From Bacillota bacterium (GTDB taxonomy: Bacteria; Bacillota; Bacilli; Bacillales_B; DSM-18226): 9,266 nucleotides of DNA. How positions within the stretch are numbered: position 1 is the first letter of the stretch; every line of letters starts with the position of its first letter. This document shows, piece after piece, positions 1,406 through 8,057 of the stretch. Location: positions 1 to 9,266 of the forward strand of contig JAUZQA010000125.1 in NCBI GenBank assembly GCA_030705665.1. Direction: 5' to 3'. The notes under the pieces were generated by a model. The model saw only the letters and a list, made by a program, of their open reading frames with translations, was not told the DNA's origin and made no database searches. Made by a program: the position numbers and the translations under genes.

Positions 1406-3202
1406 ATGCTTCTCTCAGAAATCACAAAAACACCTGTATTTACGGCTGAGTCAAAAATACTTCAGCAACACTCCGACCAAATTGCAGCGCAGATGAAGAC
1501 GTTATCGTTAGAAGAAATACCGGTTCTTGACGAAGGACACTGGGCTGGTGTATTTCATTTGTTTTCAAATGCATTTCCTGCAGGGACAGAAACGGGAGCT
1601 TGGATTCAAGATGCCCCCTTCTTTTATGGGGACACTGAGATAAATTCAATAAAGATACCTGTCAAGTCAAGCCTGATAGGTGTAATAGATGAAAAAAATA
1701 GATTTTTAGGCGTAGCAGAAGCAGCTGAAGTCATTGAACAACAGAGAAAGATCTGCGCTCAATATAAAGAATTATCGGAACAAAGAAAACACCTTGATGC
1801 CATTATTGATTCTGCTTATGACGGGATTTTGGTTACAGATCCACTTGGCGTCGTAACAAGGGTAAATCCGGCTATGTGCCGTTTTTCCGGGTTAGCTGAA
1901 GGTAGTTTTATTGGTCGGCATTTAACAGAACTGGAAAATCTTGGGGTTTTTAAAGAAAATTCGATTACTTGGAAAGCCTTGCAGGAAAAACGAGAAGTTA
2001 TAGGATTGCAGCGATATCCAACCGGTCAAGAACACATTGTAAGCGCTGTACCAATTATTGAGGAATCAGGGGAAGTCAAAGGTGCTGTTGCGACTGTACG
2101 GGACATGACGGAACTTGCAAAGATGCGGGAAGAATTGTCTATGATACAAAAGCGCAGTAAACAGTATCAAATGGAATTATTAAAGCTTCGAAAGCAAGTT
2201 CTATCAGATGAAGTGATAGCTGTATCGCCGAAAATGGTTAATGTGTTTGATTTGGCCGGAAGGGTAGCGGATTTTGATTCCACTGTCTTAATTTTGGGAG
2301 AGTCGGGTGTCGGAAAAGAAGTTCTTGCTAATTTTATTCATAAAAATAGCAGACGCTCAGAGAGTCCATTCGTGAAAATAAATTGTGGAGCACTTCCGGA
2401 GGATTTGCTCGAATCTGAATTGTTTGGATACGAAGCAGGGGCATTTACAGGCGCAAACAGGTCTGGAAAAAAAGGGCTATTTGAGGCCGCAGAGGGCGGC
2501 GTGATTTTATTGGATGAAATCGGGGAAATGTCGACCTCTCTTCAGGTGAAAATTCTTCGAGTTTTGCAGGAACAGGAATTTACCCGAGTTGGAGGAATAG
2601 AGCCAATACAGGTCAATTGCCGAATTATAGCAGCGACACACCGGAATTTGCGAGAGAGAATTCAACAAGGGCTTTTCCGAGAGGATCTATTTTACCGCCT
2701 GTATGTAGTTCCTATTGAAGTTCCGCCATTAAGGGAAAGACTGGAAGACATTCCGGCGATGATCCAATATTTTTTAAATCGCTACAATCATAAGCACGGG
2801 ACCAAAAAAGTAATTGATCCGGAAGTTATACGTACTTTGCAAAATTATTCGTGGCCAGGGAATGTCAGGCAGTTGTCCAATCTAATTGAACGATTGGTGG
2901 TGACGATATTGGATTCTACTATACGGATCCACGATCTTCCCGATGATGTCATGTCATTACAGACTCCACTTTCGGTTCATCAGTCAGCTTTGCTCATGAA
3001 TCCAGTAGAACCTGTAAAAAAACTTTCTGTTCTTGAAAAGACTGATACGAATAATAATGCTTTTAATGTTATGGAACGGGATTTAATTGTCCAGGCACTG
3101 TCGCGTTATGGCTCGATTCGTAAAGTGGGTAAGGCACTTGGAGTTTCCCACACAACGGTAATTAAGAAAATGAGAAAGTATGGTATCCAAAGAGAAAGCT
3201 AA
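1406..3202 (+). CDS. Sigma-54-dependent transcriptional activator with CBS-like, PAS, AAA+ and TyrR-type HTH regions
   Basis: This is a bacterial enhancer-binding protein that would use ATP to open sigma-54 promoters. I place the start at ATG 1406 because GGAGGGGG lies at 1392-1399; the in-frame GTG at 1328 would add 26 residues but has no ribosome site. The product is 598 residues. Residues about 30-110 resemble a degenerate CBS pair (EEIPVLDE..WAGVF, IGVIDEKNRFLGV). About 128-235 form a PAS domain (IIDSAYDGILVTDP, VNPAMCRFSG), followed by a likely coiled linker to 265. The AAA+ module spans about 268-500, with Walker A GESGVGKE (298-305), the sigma-54 contact loop GAFTGA (345-350), Walker B VILLDE (366-371) and SWPGNVRQL (482-490). 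A TyrR-like helix-turn-helix ends the protein (RKVGKALGVSHTTVIKKMRKYG, in two parts: RKVGKALGV at 572-580 and SHTTVIKK at 581-588). The effector is unknown. Its position between larE and larB suggests control of NPN or 2-hydroxyacid metabolism. Confidence 0.93.
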   Translation: MLLSEITKTPVFTAESKILQQHSDQIAAQMKTLSLEEIPVLDEGHWAGVFHLFSNAFPAGTETGAWIQDAPFFYGDTEINSIKIPVKSSLIGVIDEKNRFLGVAEAAEVIEQQRKICAQYKELSEQRKHLDAIIDSAYDGILVTDPLGVVTRVNPAMCRFSGLAEGSFIGRHLTELENLGVFKENSITWKALQEKREVIGLQRYPTGQEHIVSAVPIIEESGEVKGAVATVRDMTELAKMREELSMIQKRSKQYQMELLKLRKQVLSDEVIAVSPKMVNVFDLAGRVADFDSTVLILGESGVGKEVLANFIHKNSRRSESPFVKINCGALPEDLLESELFGYEAGAFTGANRSGKKGLFEAAEGGVILLDEIGEMSTSLQVKILRVLQEQEFTRVGGIEPIQVNCRIIAATHRNLRERIQQGLFREDLFYRLYVVPIEVPPLRERLEDIPAMIQYFLNRYNHKHGTKKVIDPEVIRTLQNYSWPGNVRQLSNLIERLVVTILDSTIRIHDLPDDVMSLQTPLSVHQSALLMNPVEPVKKLSVLEKTDTNNNAFNVMERDLIVQALSRYGSIRKVGKALGVSHTTVIKKMRKYGIQRES

Positions 3203-3242
3203 GGATAAATGTTTTTTGATTGAAAAAGGAGGAGCTAGCATC

Positions 3243-4001
3243 ATGAATCTACGTGAAGTATTACATCGTGTTAAAAATCTGGAAATCACTGTGGAGCAAG
3301 CAGAACATGAGATTAAGGGTTTTGAAGATTTAGGGTTTGTGAAAGTGGATTATGCCCGTGAAGCGAGACAAGGGTTTCCAGAGGTCATTTTTGGAAGAGG
3401 AAAAACACCGGAGCATGTAAGAATTATTTTTTCCCGAATCTATGAAAAGCATGGCAAGGCGATGGTTACCCATGCCAATGAGAAAATGGTAGAGTTGGTT
3501 CAAGAGGACTTCCCGAATGCGGTTTATGATCCATTGTCACGCTTGCTTACTATTGGCACTGTGGAAAAACGTTTCCCTGGAAGAGTCTTAGTTCTTTCTG
3601 CTGGGACTGCTGATCTCCCGGTTGCCCAAGAAGCGGCCCAAACTGCAGAATGGATGGGTAATGAAGTGGAACGCATTTATGATGTTGGAGTTGCGGGAAT
3701 TGATCGATTGCTTGCTCACAGGGATCGTATCGAAACGGCTAGCATCATTATTGTCGTGGCTGGAATGGAAGGTGCTCTGGCAAGTGTCGTTGGGGGATTG
3801 GCTCGCTGCCCTGTGATTGCTGTTCCAACCAGCGTTGGCTATGGTGCGCATTTTTCCGGGTTGACACCGCTGCTTGGCATGCTGACTGCTTGTGCATCAG
3901 GAATCACGGTAGTAAACATTGATAATGGATTTGGTGCAGCGGTGGCTGCGTCCAAGATCCAGCAAGCGATTCTCGAAGGACAACTGGAAAAGATTAAATA
4001 A
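3243..4001 (+). CDS. larB: LarB, nicotinic acid adenine dinucleotide carboxylase/hydrolase (NPN cofactor step 1)
   Basis: LarB carboxylates C5 of the pyridinium ring of nicotinic acid adenine dinucleotide and releases AMP, giving the dicarboxylate mononucleotide used by LarE. The 252-residue product has an N-terminal LarB-specific region (residues 1-110, with the hallmark GFPEVIFGRGKTPEH at 44-58). A PurE-like AIR-carboxylase domain follows from about 113 to 245 (VLVLSAGTADLPVA, VVAGMEGALASVV, VIAVPTSVGYG). Cys217 in LTACASGITVVNIDNG aligns with the nucleophilic cysteine (Cys221) of the L. plantarum enzyme that forms a covalent adduct with the substrate ring. The start at ATG 3243 is set by AAGGAGGAG at 3226-3234. 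An in-frame ATG at 3180 overlaps the regulator's 3' end and has no ribosome site. The gene follows the regulator stop by 40 bases, and no terminator is visible between them. Confidence 0.95.
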   Translation: MNLREVLHRVKNLEITVEQAEHEIKGFEDLGFVKVDYAREARQGFPEVIFGRGKTPEHVRIIFSRIYEKHGKAMVTHANEKMVELVQEDFPNAVYDPLSRLLTIGTVEKRFPGRVLVLSAGTADLPVAQEAAQTAEWMGNEVERIYDVGVAGIDRLLAHRDRIETASIIIVVAGMEGALASVVGGLARCPVIAVPTSVGYGAHFSGLTPLLGMLTACASGITVVNIDNGFGAAVAASKIQQAILEGQLEKIK

Positions 4002-4031
4002 ACGGCTCTTACTTTAAATTAAAATCACTTT

Positions 4032-4151
4032 GGTATTTGAAGGAATTTGAAGTTGTTCGGGTGATGGCATCTCTTTTCAAATTATTCTTAATGCCATCCT
4101 GTTTAATTATGGAGGAGGTATCTTCTTATGAAAATACCTCTTTTTTATTAA
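4032..4151 (+). promoter_or_regulatory. Structured larC leader: candidate pseudoknot plus attenuator (possible riboswitch-like element)
   Basis: Four pairings are visible in the larB-larC gap. Stem A: AATTTGAA (4044-4051) with TTCAAATT (4076-4083), 8 perfect pairs plus a G-U. Stem B: GATGGCAT (4063-4070) with ATGCCATC (4091-4098), 8 perfect pairs. The order A-B-A'-B' makes an H-type pseudoknot, or two competing hairpins. Stem T: GAGGTAT (4115-4121) with ATACCTC (4134-4140), followed by six T, a terminator. Stem P1: GGTATTT (4032-4038) with AAATACC (4132-4138), which would use the 3' arm of T and so prevent termination. A short reading frame MKIPLFY (ATG 4128, TAA 4149-4151) has the strong site GGAGGAGG at 4111-4118 on the terminator's 5' side. 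The pairings are read directly; the switching role is inferred. It matches no riboswitch class I recognise. Confidence 0.5.
4115..4146 (+). terminator. Rho-independent terminator/attenuator immediately upstream of larC
   Basis: A 7-bp stem (4115-4121 with 4134-4140) with a 12-base loop is followed by TTTTTT at 4141-4146. Only about 11 bases separate the T tract from the larC ribosome site at 4158-4162, so no promoter fits between them and larC must be reached by read-through. A conditional attenuator is therefore more likely than a plain operon end. Confidence 0.6.
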
Positions 4152-4168
4152 GACTTTGGAGGAAACAA

Positions 4169-5587
4169 ATGATGAAAACTCTTTACTTCGACTGTATCTC
4201 CGGAATTTCAGGCGATATGACACTGGGCGCCCTTATCGATTTAGGAGCGGATCTATCTTATATTGTTGAGCACCTAAGAAAATTACCAATTGACCCATTT
4301 GAAATAAAAGCGCAGAAAGTGATTAAACTTGGCATAGATTCTACGAAATTGCAAATCATTTTTCCTGAAGCAGAAAATAGCCATGAACACGTGCATAGCC
4401 ATAGCCACGAACATGTGGACAACCACAGCCATGAACATGGCCACGATCATGGACAAATTCACAGCCACAGCCATGAACATGACCACGATCATGGGCATAG
4501 TCATAGCCATAGCCACAGCCATGAACATGACCACGATCATGGGCACAGTCACAGCCACAGCCATGAACATGACCACGACCATGGGCACAGTCACAGCCAC
4601 AGCCACAGCCATGAACATCGAAGTGCAGCAATGATTTTAGGTATGATTGAGCAGAGTGACCTGCCAGGAAGAGTGAAAGAAAGAAGTCTTGCCATTTTTA
4701 AGGAAATAGCTATTGCAGAGGGTAAGATTCATGGGATTGATCCAAAGGATGTACATTTCCATGAGGTCGGAGCAATGGACTCCATTATTGATACGATTGG
4801 TGTCTGTCTAGCACTTGAAAACCTTGAAATCGATGAAGTCTATTCCTCACCAGTGCCAACAGGCTTTGGAAAAAAGCGTATGGCGCATGGGCTTTATCCA
4901 ATCCCCGCTCCGGCAACGCTTGAGCTGCTAAAGGGAATTCCGTTAGCTGAACTAAACGTAAAGGGTGAATTGACTACTCCAACTGGAGCGGGAATTTTAC
5001 GAGCGTTAGTAAAACAATTTATTCATCCAGGTGGATTTACAGTAGAACAGGTTGGATATGGTGCAGGGGAGAAAGACTTTGACCATCCGAATGTACTAAG
5101 AGCTATGCTGATCAAGCCATCCAACATAAAAAAAAATCTATTTGCTGATGAATCTTCACAGGAGCGTGAGCCCATTTTTGTACTGGAAGCTCAACTGGAT
5201 GATATGACCGGGGAAGGCCTTGGATATACCATGGAAAGTCTTCTTTCCGCAGGAGCACTTGATGTTTTTTATACTCCAGTATACATGAAGAAAAATCGGC
5301 CGGGAACACTTGTCACTGTGCTTGCTTCCCTGGATTCATCAGATCGGTGTGAACATATTTTGCTGACTGAAACCACAACGCTTGGGGTCCGGAGAAGCCT
5401 GTGGAGCCGCAATATACTTAATAGAAGGTTTATGGTTGCTAATACCCCATATGGACCAATAAAAGTAAAGCTGGCATTAATGGGAGATAAATTTCTGCAT
5501 CAGGCACCTGAATACGAAGATGTCGCTAGGGCGGCGAGAGAACATCAGGTTCCTTTTCAAGAAGTATACCAATCCGCTATGAGATAG
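4169..5587 (+). CDS. larC: LarC, CTP-dependent nickel insertase for NPN cofactor, with very long His-rich insert
   Basis: LarC is the cyclometallase that places nickel into the pincer nucleotide, using CTP, in the last step of the pathway. The product is 472 residues. The N-terminal family signature LYFDCISGISGDMTLGALIDLGAD begins at residue 5 (shown to FDCISGISGDM at 7-17). An 80-residue His-rich insert occupies 71-150. Later family segments include HFHEVGAMDSIIDTIG, PAPATLELLKGIPL, TPTGAGILRALV and, in the LarC2 part, LEAQLDDMTGEGLGY. L. plantarum makes the full protein by a ribosomal frameshift between larC1 and larC2; here both parts lie in one unbroken frame. GGAGG at 4158-4162 sets the start at the double ATG 4169/4172; either may be used. 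In-frame ATG 4109 and TTG 4037 lie in the leader and lack a suitable ribosome site. The next gene, a nickel permease, starts 69 bases downstream. Confidence 0.93.
   Translation: MMKTLYFDCISGISGDMTLGALIDLGADLSYIVEHLRKLPIDPFEIKAQKVIKLGIDSTKLQIIFPEAENSHEHVHSHSHEHVDNHSHEHGHDHGQIHSHSHEHDHDHGHSHSHSHSHEHDHDHGHSHSHSHEHDHDHGHSHSHSHSHEHRSAAMILGMIEQSDLPGRVKERSLAIFKEIAIAEGKIHGIDPKDVHFHEVGAMDSIIDTIGVCLALENLEIDEVYSSPVPTGFGKKRMAHGLYPIPAPATLELLKGIPLAELNVKGELTTPTGAGILRALVKQFIHPGGFTVEQVGYGAGEKDFDHPNVLRAMLIKPSNIKKNLFADESSQEREPIFVLEAQLDDMTGEGLGYTMESLLSAGALDVFYTPVYMKKNRPGTLVTVLASLDSSDRCEHILLTETTTLGVRRSLWSRNILNRRFMVANTPYGPIKVKLALMGDKFLHQAPEYEDVARAAREHQVPFQEVYQSAMR
4379..4618 (+). repeat. Imperfect tandem repeat encoding the His-rich metal-binding insert of LarC
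   Basis: This stretch encodes 80 residues with 38 His, in SH, EH, DH and GH pairs, a pattern typical of nickel or cobalt storage segments. At the DNA level a near-identical unit beginning CATGAACATGACCACGA recurs at 4472, 4520 and 4562, with a partial copy at 4610, giving spacings of 48, 42 and 48 bases (16, 14 and 16 codons). Copy differences are mostly C/T third-position changes. All spacings are multiples of three, so copy number can change without breaking the frame. Confidence 0.9.
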
Positions 5588-5656: not shown

Positions 5657-6688
5657 ATGCAAAATCTAAAAAAATTCCTGAAAAAAAACTGGATACCTTA
5701 TGGTGTGATCGTCCTTTTACTGCACATAGTAGGACTTTCCTTTTTAATCTTAGGAGCTAAAAATCATTCCTTATTACTTGGGATGGCGTTTATTTCCTAC
5801 ACACTTGGTTTAAGACATGCTTTTGATGCGGACCACATTGCAGCGATTGATAACACAGTTAGGAAATTGGTGCAACAAAAGAAAAATCCTGTTGGGGTGG
5901 GATTCTTCTTTTCAGTAGGGCATTCAAGTGTTGTATTTTTAATGGCTGTGCTCCTTGCAGTATCTGTTCAATGGGCACAAAAGGAATTGCCGCAGTGGCA
6001 GGAAATGGGCAATGTGTTAGGGACGGCTGTTTCCGGTTGTTTTCTACTATTTATTGGTGTCCTGAATGCGATTGTTCTTTTCGACCTGCAAAAAGTTTTT
6101 TTAAAAATGCGTCAAGGGACATACAACGAAGAGGAAGTAGAAGAGCTTTTGCTTAATCGAGGTTTCCTGGCCCGCTTTGCTGGTCCGCTTTTTAAGTTAA
6201 TCAATAAAAGCTGGCATGTTTATCCATTGGGCTTTTTATTTGGTCTAGGTTTTGATACGGCAAGTGAAGTCGCATTGTTGGCGATATCAGCAGGTGCCGC
6301 AAAAACGGCACTGCCTTTAGTGGGCATCCTTTCTCTTCCGATTCTTTTTGCAGCAGGGATGAGTTTAATGGATACTGCTGATGGTGTTTTTATGTCAAAT
6401 GCTTATAAATGGGCGTTTTCAACACCACTAAGAAAGGTGTACTACAATTTGACTGTTACTACGCTATCGGTTATAGCAGCTTTACTGATTGGTATGATCG
6501 AGTTGGCACAAGTTTTTTCAAAAAAATTAAACCTAAATGGGGAAAGCTGGCATTGGATTCAAAATGTGGACATTGGCTGGCTGGGTTATTTATTAGTTGT
6601 ATTATTCATAGTAGCTTGGGGATTGTCTTTCGCGATATGGAAGGTATTTAAATTTGAAGAACGTTGGAAGCAATCAATGAAAATATGA
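5657..6688 (+). CDS. NiCoT-family nickel/cobalt permease (HoxN/NixA type)
   Basis: A membrane transporter that takes up Ni(II) and/or Co(II), here presumably to supply nickel for LarC. The 343-residue product has hydrophobic segments near residues 14-34, 39-52, 82-104, 119-143, 189-212, 216-237, 263-285 and 306-328, consistent with the eight-helix plan. The diagnostic HX4DH motif is HAFDADH at 54-60. Other family signatures are FSVGHSSVVF (85-94), LGFDTASE (197-204) and GMSLMDTADGVFM (234-246). Residues 146-180 form a charged loop in the middle. The start at ATG 5657 follows CGGAGG at 5646-5651. No terminator separates it from larC, and the hydrolase gene begins 24 bases after its stop, so all three are probably co-transcribed. 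Nickel versus cobalt preference cannot be told from sequence, but the lar context favours nickel. Confidence 0.95.
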   Translation: MQNLKKFLKKNWIPYGVIVLLLHIVGLSFLILGAKNHSLLLGMAFISYTLGLRHAFDADHIAAIDNTVRKLVQQKKNPVGVGFFFSVGHSSVVFLMAVLLAVSVQWAQKELPQWQEMGNVLGTAVSGCFLLFIGVLNAIVLFDLQKVFLKMRQGTYNEEEVEELLLNRGFLARFAGPLFKLINKSWHVYPLGFLFGLGFDTASEVALLAISAGAAKTALPLVGILSLPILFAAGMSLMDTADGVFMSNAYKWAFSTPLRKVYYNLTVTTLSVIAALLIGMIELAQVFSKKLNLNGESWHWIQNVDIGWLGYLLVVLFIVAWGLSFAIWKVFKFEERWKQSMKI

Positions 6689-6712: not shown

Positions 6713-7513
6713 ATGCCTTTCTTAAGGATAGGAAAAGATGATATATATTATCACTTTGAGCAAGGGGATCCTGATAAAGTAATACTGCTCTTACACAGTC
6801 TAGGCACCAATCAAAGCCTGTGGAAATACCAGATTGCTTTTTTCGCTGAAAAGGGATTTACCGTTATTGCCCCAGATGCAAGGGGGCATGGAAAGTCGTC
6901 TTGCAATGGCAGTATATCCGTTGAGCAATGGGTGGAGGATCTCATCTCAATTTTGGATCATTTAAAAATTGAAAAAACATTTGTTTGTGGGGTATCGATG
7001 GGGGGAGTGGAAGCAATGGCTTTAGCAGCACAACATCCACAACGAGTCCAGGGTCTTGTATTGGCCGACACCTTTGCCAAAATTGATCCAAAAGTGGTAC
7101 CTGAAAAAATTAGGTTAACTGCGGGCGTGGCAAGACAACAGGGGATGGAAAAGTACGCACAGACTTATCTGGAGCATACCTTATCCTATTCCTCGTCTGC
7201 GAAATCGATCCGTGATTCACTGCACCAAGCCATTGCAAGAATGAATGTGAAAGATTATTCAGCATCCGCGGAAACATGTTTCAGCGCAGATTTGGAGGAA
7301 CAATTATCTACTATTTCTGTTCCAGCCTTGGTAATCATCGGAGAAGAAGATTTTAAGACTCCAATTGAGTTGTCGGAAGCGATTGCAAGCAGAATCTCAA
7401 ATGCCAAATTGAAAGTAATTCCAAGTGCCAGGCATCTTTCAAATGTAGACGAACCAGAATTCTTTAATAAATTAGTTTATGAATATTGTCTTCCAATCAT
7501 GAGTGGCTATTAA
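6713..7513 (+). CDS. Alpha/beta hydrolase, 3-oxoadipate enol-lactonase (PcaD)-like
   Basis: A 266-residue alpha/beta-hydrolase-fold protein with no signal peptide, so probably cytoplasmic. A full catalytic triad can be assigned: Ser95 in the nucleophile elbow GVSMGG (93-98), Asp213 in IGEEDFKTP (209-217) and His241 in SARHLSNVDEPEFF (238-251). The oxyanion segment LLHSLGTN is at 26-33, and PDARGHGKS (54-62) is typical of the PcaD/MhpC-like branch. The substrate cannot be assigned: enol-lactone, C-C bond and simple ester hydrolases all share this pattern. The start at ATG 6713 follows GAAGGAG at 6697-6703. It is the last gene of the run and is followed by the terminator at 7644-7679. Why a hydrolase accompanies the NPN genes is unknown. 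It might make or recycle a 2-hydroxyacid substrate, for example from a lactone or ester. Confidence 0.9.
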   Translation: MPFLRIGKDDIYYHFEQGDPDKVILLLHSLGTNQSLWKYQIAFFAEKGFTVIAPDARGHGKSSCNGSISVEQWVEDLISILDHLKIEKTFVCGVSMGGVEAMALAAQHPQRVQGLVLADTFAKIDPKVVPEKIRLTAGVARQQGMEKYAQTYLEHTLSYSSSAKSIRDSLHQAIARMNVKDYSASAETCFSADLEEQLSTISVPALVIIGEEDFKTPIELSEAIASRISNAKLKVIPSARHLSNVDEPEFFNKLVYEYCLPIMSGY

Positions 7514-7643
7514 AATTTACCCCCTATGTATGTTTATTGTCGTAGACAACTCGTGAATTCGCCAAATCCTCTTTGAATGAAAGTCACAGCTAAGAACGGT
7601 GAATACTTAAATTTGTTAAAGGTAGTTGGTTTTTATTAATTTT

Positions 7644-7679
7644 AAAAATCCCAATCCACAACGCTGGACTGGGATTTTT
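7644..7679 (+). terminator. Rho-independent terminator at the end of the lar operon (probably bidirectional)
   Basis: The arms 7644-7657 and 7666-7679 form a 14-bp stem with one A-C mismatch (AAAAATCCCA then TCC against GGA then TGGGATTTTT) and an 8-base loop. The T tract lies inside the 3' arm, and the matching A tract on the left would let it work on the other strand. It lies 130 bases after the hydrolase stop. Confidence 0.85.
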
Positions 7680-7681
7680 AT

Positions 7682-7873
7682 TTAATATTCAACCGGCGAA
7701 GAAGGTGTTTTAGAACTTCTGAAAACAAATTCTTCGTTTTCAGAAGGAGTGTATTCCGGGGATTAGATGTTATCCCGAACCCAGATAGCGTTGAATTTAA
7801 TGGGACTGAAGAGTTTAGTTTTTATGTTACAGTATCCTTAAAGCTAAAAGGAAAAGAAAAGGCGAATAGTTAA
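7682..7873 (+). pseudogene. Possible gene remnant or small unrecognised ORF
   Basis: One frame stays open for 63 codons up to TAA at 7871-7873. Its last part reads like real protein (IPNPDSVEFNGTEEFSFYV, followed by a Lys-rich tail). There is no ATG, GTG or TTG start with a ribosome site in this frame, and the first half is Arg- and Phe-rich and crosses the 11-bp inverted repeat. It may be the 3' end of a decayed gene, or chance. I do not recognise the family. Confidence 0.2.
7716..7746. repeat. Perfect 11-bp inverted repeat
   Basis: CTTCTGAAAAC (7716-7726) and GTTTTCAGAAG (7736-7746) are exact reverse complements around a 9-base loop. No T tract follows, so it is not a normal terminator. 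It could be an operator, a stable RNA hairpin, or a trace of a small mobile element. Confidence 0.7.
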
Positions 7874-8006: not shown

Positions 8007-8057
8007 CAACAACCTTTTCTTGTATTCAATCGTGAGGAGGTTGTTGTTTGTTTTGTG
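8007..8057 (+). terminator. Terminator-like hairpin upstream of the glycerate kinase
   Basis: 8007-8019 (CAACAACCTTTTC) pairs with 8034-8046 (GAGGAGGTTGTTG) as a 13-bp stem including two G-U pairs, with a 14-base loop. A T-rich tail TTTGTTTTG follows. It ends about 100 bases before the glycerate kinase start, so it could end an unseen upstream transcript or act as an attenuator in the kinase leader. Confidence 0.5.

Follow-up and report, generated by a model that had tools for sequence, protein, structure and literature searches.

The window, by which we mean the whole stretch of 9,266 nucleotides analysed, carries a larE-like gene (487-1311; named from its context, the top Pfam match being NAD_synthase), a PAS / sigma-54 activator gene recognised with Pfam between larE and larB (1406-3202), larB encoding 252 aa (3243-4001, plus strand; Pfam AIRC, 4.6e-12), larC encoding 472 aa from its first ATG (4169-5587, plus strand; Pfam Ni_insertion, 3.4e-141; second ATG at 4172), a NicO-family nickel/cobalt permease gene 3' of larC (5657-6688, plus strand; Pfam NicO, 1.5e-102), an alpha/beta hydrolase gene (6713-7513), a glycerate kinase gene running from 8148 to the window end, and a partial gene of the FAA-hydrolase family. 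The nearest named matches of the window's proteins belong to Aneurinibacillus and Neobacillus, and homologues of LarB reach 97% identity in the protein search. In the making of the nickel-pincer nucleotide LarB carries out the first step, while the metal is imported by the nickel permease and inserted by LarC. The larB and larC genes are separated by a spacer of 167 nt with 32% GC (4002-4168, plus strand), which we describe here as a candidate attenuator leader.

A search for sigma-70-like sites in the region 3000-4400 returned none on the plus strand and three in all, each on the minus strand. A sigma-54 promoter in the spacer was rejected, as sites with up to three mismatches number 41 in the window versus 43 expected and that of the spacer (4065) has three mismatches; sigma-54-type sites are thus at chance in a window that nevertheless carries a sigma-54 activator gene, and the sole one-mismatch site (5311-5326) lies inside larC. 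An inverted repeat serving as DNA operator was likewise rejected: the motif ATGCCATC (up to one mismatch) has 15 matches versus 9.2 expected, a number reached by 7 of 200 shuffles, and its matches beyond the spacer all lie inside genes. Duplication of the larC start was dismissed too, its alignment score of 24 being reached in 4 of 500 letter shuffles but also in 28 of the 101 gene starts used as controls, 17 of them among the 37 with low GC. Within LarC, positions 4378-4617 encode a long His-rich repeat of SHSHEHDHDHGH type, the length and sequence of which differ in the near relatives P0121 and P0122. A run of nine A at 5128-5136 is placed close to the border of the N- and C-terminal parts of LarC, the Neobacillus LarC proteins P0187, P0203 and P0234 stop about where it falls, and in G096 the two LarC parts occupy separate open frames (308 and 196 aa). 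It resembles the arrangement in Lactobacillus plantarum, in which larC is reportedly split into larC1 and larC2 with programmed frameshifting, whereas the larC frame of the window is continuous. Further downstream, the hairpin at 8007-8047 (CAACAACC ... GGTTGTTG, -17.2 kcal/mol) is strong, has a tail rich in T and lies about 100 nt 5' of the glycerate kinase gene.

Before larC we identified a terminator-like hairpin (4111-4144, with six T reaching 4146) that ends 22 nt 5' of the gene. Its 3' arm, strand 4 below (4134-4144, plus strand), forms seven Watson-Crick pairs with the 5' arm (4115-4121/4134-4140), and the stem continues beyond this 7-bp core via G-U and A-U pairs into the six-T tail (4141-4146, plus strand), which lies just where the initial annotation had placed it. 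A stable hairpin followed by a U run is hence present 5' of the gene to be controlled. Only 1 of 400 shuffles equalled the hairpin score of -14.2 (the site near 7677 scores -14.5), and the segment 4108-4146 folds at -14.8 kcal/mol with z = -4.86 and 0 of 200 shuffles as good, the comparison hairpin in 7640-7690, 3' of the hydrolase gene, having z = -6.18. Under a stricter scoring procedure the larC-side hairpin, at -12.2, was the weakest of the four window sites given, and it was absent from a simple terminator scan with a loop limit of 8 because its outer loop exceeds that limit. The predicted hairpin is well above chance and probably active. It adjoins larC so closely that transcription of larC would need read-through, which agrees with the initial annotation.

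The 5' arm of the hairpin has a second partner. Strand 3 (4111-4121, plus strand) pairs through 4113-4121 with strand 2 (4091-4100, plus strand) in a duplex of -10.4 kcal/mol with one bulge, at 4096, and this helix, a conventional antiterminator on the terminator 5' arm, had been missed by the initial annotation. Strand 2 can alternatively be held by strand 1 (4063-4070, plus strand), which pairs with 4091-4098 in an exact 8-bp helix that would act as anti-antiterminator. Since 4091-4100 is both the 3' strand of the 4063-4070/4091-4098 helix and the partner of the 5' arm, the spacer holds a ladder of 1:2, 2:3 and 3:4 pairings. No segment upstream pairs better with the terminator 5' arm than strand 2 (-10.4), which also supplies the 3' strand of the strong 1:2 helix (-13.5). 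The 2:3 helix excludes the terminator by using its 5' arm, and the 1:2 helix excludes the antiterminator by using strand 2; the earlier claim that the spacer can take mutually exclusive folds is in this sense supported. What favours the 2:3 helix is that it occupies the 5' arm, can form while the 3' arm is still unmade and has strand 2 in common with 1:2.

Folding of growing transcripts from 3960 gave minimum-energy structures with 1:2 at 4098-4114, another pairing at 4118, 2:3 at 4122-4134, a mixed state at 4138 and 1:2 together with 3:4 from 4142 on. For the transcript starting at 4002, the 2:3 state lay above the best fold by 2.1 kcal/mol (4130, 4134) and 4.9 kcal/mol (4138). At full length (4146) it was worse than the terminator state by 7.7 (from 3960) or 9.4 kcal/mol (from 4002), energies that leave aside kinetics and proteins.

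The rarity of the ladder was assessed with two controls. When the terminator was kept and 4002-4108 was shuffled 2000 times, as good a 2:3 partner appeared in 22% of the shuffles, as good a 1:2 partner in 0.2% and both in 0 of 2000. As a natural control, one fixed procedure was applied to 858 terminator-like sites from the loci then fetched; it scores the window site at -9.2 / -13.1, slightly weaker than the hand-set -10.4 / -13.5. With the hand-set values 44 of the 858 natural sites pass, and a single one among the 176 with upstream GC below 40%. The values of the procedure itself let through 0 of 112 natural sites at upstream GC below 36%, 1 of 176 below 40% and 52 of 682 at 40% or more, 46 of these at 50% or more. 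The ladder thus stands out for a sequence of its base composition, both tests being post hoc, with the ladder seen first and its own values used as thresholds.

From these sequences, pairings and energies, and from the rarity against the controls, we tentatively read the spacer as a mid-operon transcription attenuator that would limit larC and the nickel permease, a reading that we hold with somewhat less than even confidence. RNA polymerase leaving larB would make strands 1 to 4 in turn. Should strand 2 be kept by strand 1 (4063-4070/4091-4098), strand 3 would pair with strand 4 into an intrinsic terminator at 4146; should it pair with strand 3 instead (4091-4100/4113-4121), no terminator would arise and transcription would go on into larC and through the nickel permease and hydrolase genes. 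With no signal the folding model prefers the terminator state, and the default would then be lowered larC expression. We infer that the hairpin terminates, that 2:3 is formed early enough and that the balance is tipped by some signal. The attenuator ladder is, in sum, plausible but unproven.

The alternative that survives best, somewhat unlikely in our judgement, is a constitutive and partly efficient intra-operon terminator, which would keep expression of larC and the permease below that of larE, the regulator and larB and would not switch. The hairpin is the best supported single element of the spacer, the full-length RNA is most stable in the terminator state and a trigger would not be needed. 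Such a terminator leaves unexplained the coincidence of 1:2 with 2:3, which recurred in 0 of 2000 shuffles and at 1 of 176 natural low-GC sites.

We also considered coupling to a ribosome. A Shine-Dalgarno-like GGAGGAGG (4111-4118) is situated in strand 3, nine bases 5' of a start codon at 4128 in the terminator loop, from which a frame of seven codons, MKIPLFY, runs to its stop (4128-4151, plus strand); from its sequence, this frame is a possible candidate for a leader peptide. A ribosome on GGAGGAGG that starts the 4128 frame would block the hairpin, which would terminate when no ribosome is there. In a variant, a ribosome that ends translation at 4062-4064 would mask strand 1 and free strand 2: the short frames starting at TTG 4047 (five codons) and TTG 4053 (three codons) end, by eye, at the edge of strand 1. 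Trp-type leader-peptide attenuators are built on a 1:2 / 2:3 / 3:4 ladder, and the lar spacer resembles them in this strand order and differs in that no leader peptide places control codons over strand 1. Three-frame translation inspected by eye revealed no such peptide; the two TTG frames reach strand 1 with no more than their stop (4062-4064) and contain no control-codon run. Coupling would fit a strong Shine-Dalgarno-like site with a start codon inside the hairpin, and the rplJL leader of B. subtilis likewise has a leader peptide alongside its attenuator (PMC4538822). Against it, RNA polymerase has only about 20 nt to go beyond the site before the 3' arm is made, which gives initiation hardly any time, none of the peptides contains a run of a single amino acid and the TTG frames are preceded by a weak AAGGA alone (4040-4044). 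The starts in the larC frame, TTG 4037, GTG 4061 and ATG 4064, read on into larC with no stop and, by eye, have no well-placed Shine-Dalgarno sequence. Taken with its TTG variant, ribosome coupling is quite unlikely.

The spacer is open throughout in the larC frame from 3998 (3998-4168, 57 codons), as happened in 1.6% of 5000 shuffles, while some frame was fully open in 5.0% of 5000 spacer shuffles. Searching proteins with its larC-frame translation retrieved one protein with the extension, P0121, the first residues of which match the spacer translation at 19 of 20 positions and the annotated start of which corresponds to ATG 4109. Its LarC is about 98% identical to that of the window past the His-rich part (7 differences, by eye), too close overall for the conserved extension to say anything on function. 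A coding extension of LarC was rejected on codon usage, which at -0.087 bits per codon is below that of every one of 106 genuine in-frame pieces, whose mean is 0.221 and minimum -0.022.

The larB-larC gap was then compared among relatives. Loci were drawn from a first scan of contigs (the best 80 of 573 relatives, with few named Bacilli among them), from 398 genomes of the class, of which 101 had a match and which gave loci for 30 places, from the family that holds Niallia (193 genomes, 66 with a match, loci for 30), from one family of 11 and one of 17, from 118 genomes of another family and from 398 genomes across the phylum. The gap counts refer to the loci fetched, which are fewer than all matches, with the gap extrapolated from the protein match. 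There were 193 loci with a LarB match, 123 of them with a LarC start within 1.4 kb and 119 of these distinct; the other 70 were dropped for having no larC near or too little sequence, 20 of them being pieces with larB alone. The gap was at most 10 nt in 103 of the 119 distinct loci, 11-50 nt in 11 and above 50 nt in 5, hence at most 50 nt in 114. In the 85 distinct Bacilli-centred loci, including L178 from the phylum-wide draw, the gene order is that of the window, whereas the gap is at most 47 nt or the genes overlap, so that there is no space for a terminator. Among the five longer gaps, that of L023 (110 nt) has a fold in which the eye finds no hairpin with a U tail, and in L050 (by eye), L030, L039 and L051 another open frame intervenes. 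The 354-nt gap of L050 contains a frame that by eye resembles a metal-sensing repressor of the CsoR/RcnR type, possibly a hint of metal control at the larB-larC junction in another lineage. Those of L030, L039 and L051 are of 120-140 codons and look by eye like toxin-antitoxin genes (PIN-domain-like in L030 and L051, MazF-like in L039).

The two LarB closest to that of the window for which DNA was at hand are those of L083 (82% identical), which is Aneurinibacillus terranovensis by an identical protein, and L084 (77%). As neither has larC after larB, the nearest usable gaps come from LarB at most 76% identical. The LarB of Neobacillus bataviensis, at 80% identity, is known here as a protein alone. 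On the 3' side of the L083 larB (minus strand of the fetched locus), a sequence that by eye is like a transposase remnant stands in place of larC, and that genome gave 0 LarC matches at E up to 1e-40. L083, L084, L105, L109 and L131 were the later loci that had enough sequence and no larC in reach. Compared as DNA with 256 loci, the spacer had its top match in L099, to the larC start only (35 nt), and nhmmer gave 0 matches; the terminator 30-mer was found in none of the viral contigs. With 114 of 119 gaps at 50 nt or less, the spacer looks lineage-specific, which would point to a narrow acquisition.

This distribution also suits the view that the spacer is a lineage-specific AT-rich insertion with no regulatory function, its hairpins due to chance or serving to protect mRNA ends. 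Folded as a whole, the spacer beats its shuffles by a modest margin only (z = -1.98, 9 of 200 as good), and its plus strand has no match in an Rfam search of 4227 families at E up to 5, the sole match overlapping the spacer being STnc460 on the minus strand (20.4 bits versus a cut-off of 70). This reading is improbable given a terminator hairpin equalled by 1 in 400 shuffles and the strand ladder.

The initial annotation had proposed a pseudoknot attenuator in which a 7-bp helix captures the terminator 3' arm. Both of its 8-bp pairings, 4044-4051/4076-4083 and 4063-4070/4091-4098, are exact and follow the order A-B-A'-B'. In 3000 dinucleotide-preserving shuffles of 4002-4168, at least one perfect 8-bp stem occurred in 30%, at least two in 12% and two in A-B-A'-B' order in 1.0%; among 728 overlapping pieces of 167 nt taken from both strands of the window, 10 show that pattern as well. 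The two stems behave as alternatives in nested folds, with probabilities of 0.54 and 0.46 in a model that has no pseudoknot energies, and these folds give the pseudoknot no support as the working structure. The pairing 4032-4038/4132-4138 is indeed exact over 7 bp, but the capture proposed for it has a probability of about 2e-7 when 4002-4146 is free to fold, and since the spacer holds nine perfect 7-bp pairs such a pairing alone is not notable. The first stem (4044-4083, plus strand) is part of a long imperfect hairpin (4017-4108) and is also found in the fold with 2:3 enforced. Enforcing either 2:3 or 4032-4038/4132-4138 on 4002-4146 yielded an identical fold with both helices and the first stem, 9.4 kcal/mol above the terminator fold, so that the 7-bp helix and this stem are features of the antiterminated state and not of a pseudoknot. 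Exact as its pairings are, the pseudoknot mechanism is very improbable, as the capture helix needs the terminator's own 3' arm to be made first and would come too late to pre-empt the terminator.

The NiCo (Co2+/Ni2+) riboswitch is an RNA element through which nickel or cobalt could act on transport genes. It is presumably among the Rfam families searched, and the lar spacer is unlike it in that the plus strand matches none of them. Searches of the open-licence literature listed no RNA switch or attenuator between larB and larC; the term riboswitch is absent from the best-matching papers listed on larB, larC or lactate racemase, and a match for nickel-pincer with riboswitch concerns origins of life only. 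The closest described mechanism is, by analogy, the attenuator of the B. subtilis rplJL leader, with its anti-antiterminator, antiterminator and terminator (PMC4538822). The rplJL leader and the lar spacer have in common three mutually exclusive helices, their matching order and an intrinsic terminator before the controlled genes, whereas the lar element lies inside an operon after larB and not at the 5' end, precedes other genes, has no known binding protein and is predicted from sequence.

The triggers suggested in the initial annotation, namely nickel, an NPN intermediate, CTP or a protein, found no support in the analysis. For the attenuator proposed here, our guess from the genes controlled is that nickel or cofactor status might be the trigger. 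The fuller proposal, that of an RNA switch in the lar operon which would split LarB from LarC and the nickel permease and answer to nickel or an NPN intermediate, is unlikely as a whole. If the attenuator is real, it would set an RNA-level control point after LarB, which opens the synthesis of the nickel-pincer cofactor, and before LarC and NicO, which insert nickel and take it up. With larB and larC tightly joined in relatives, the locus would then also be a clean case of an attenuator gained within an operon by one lineage.
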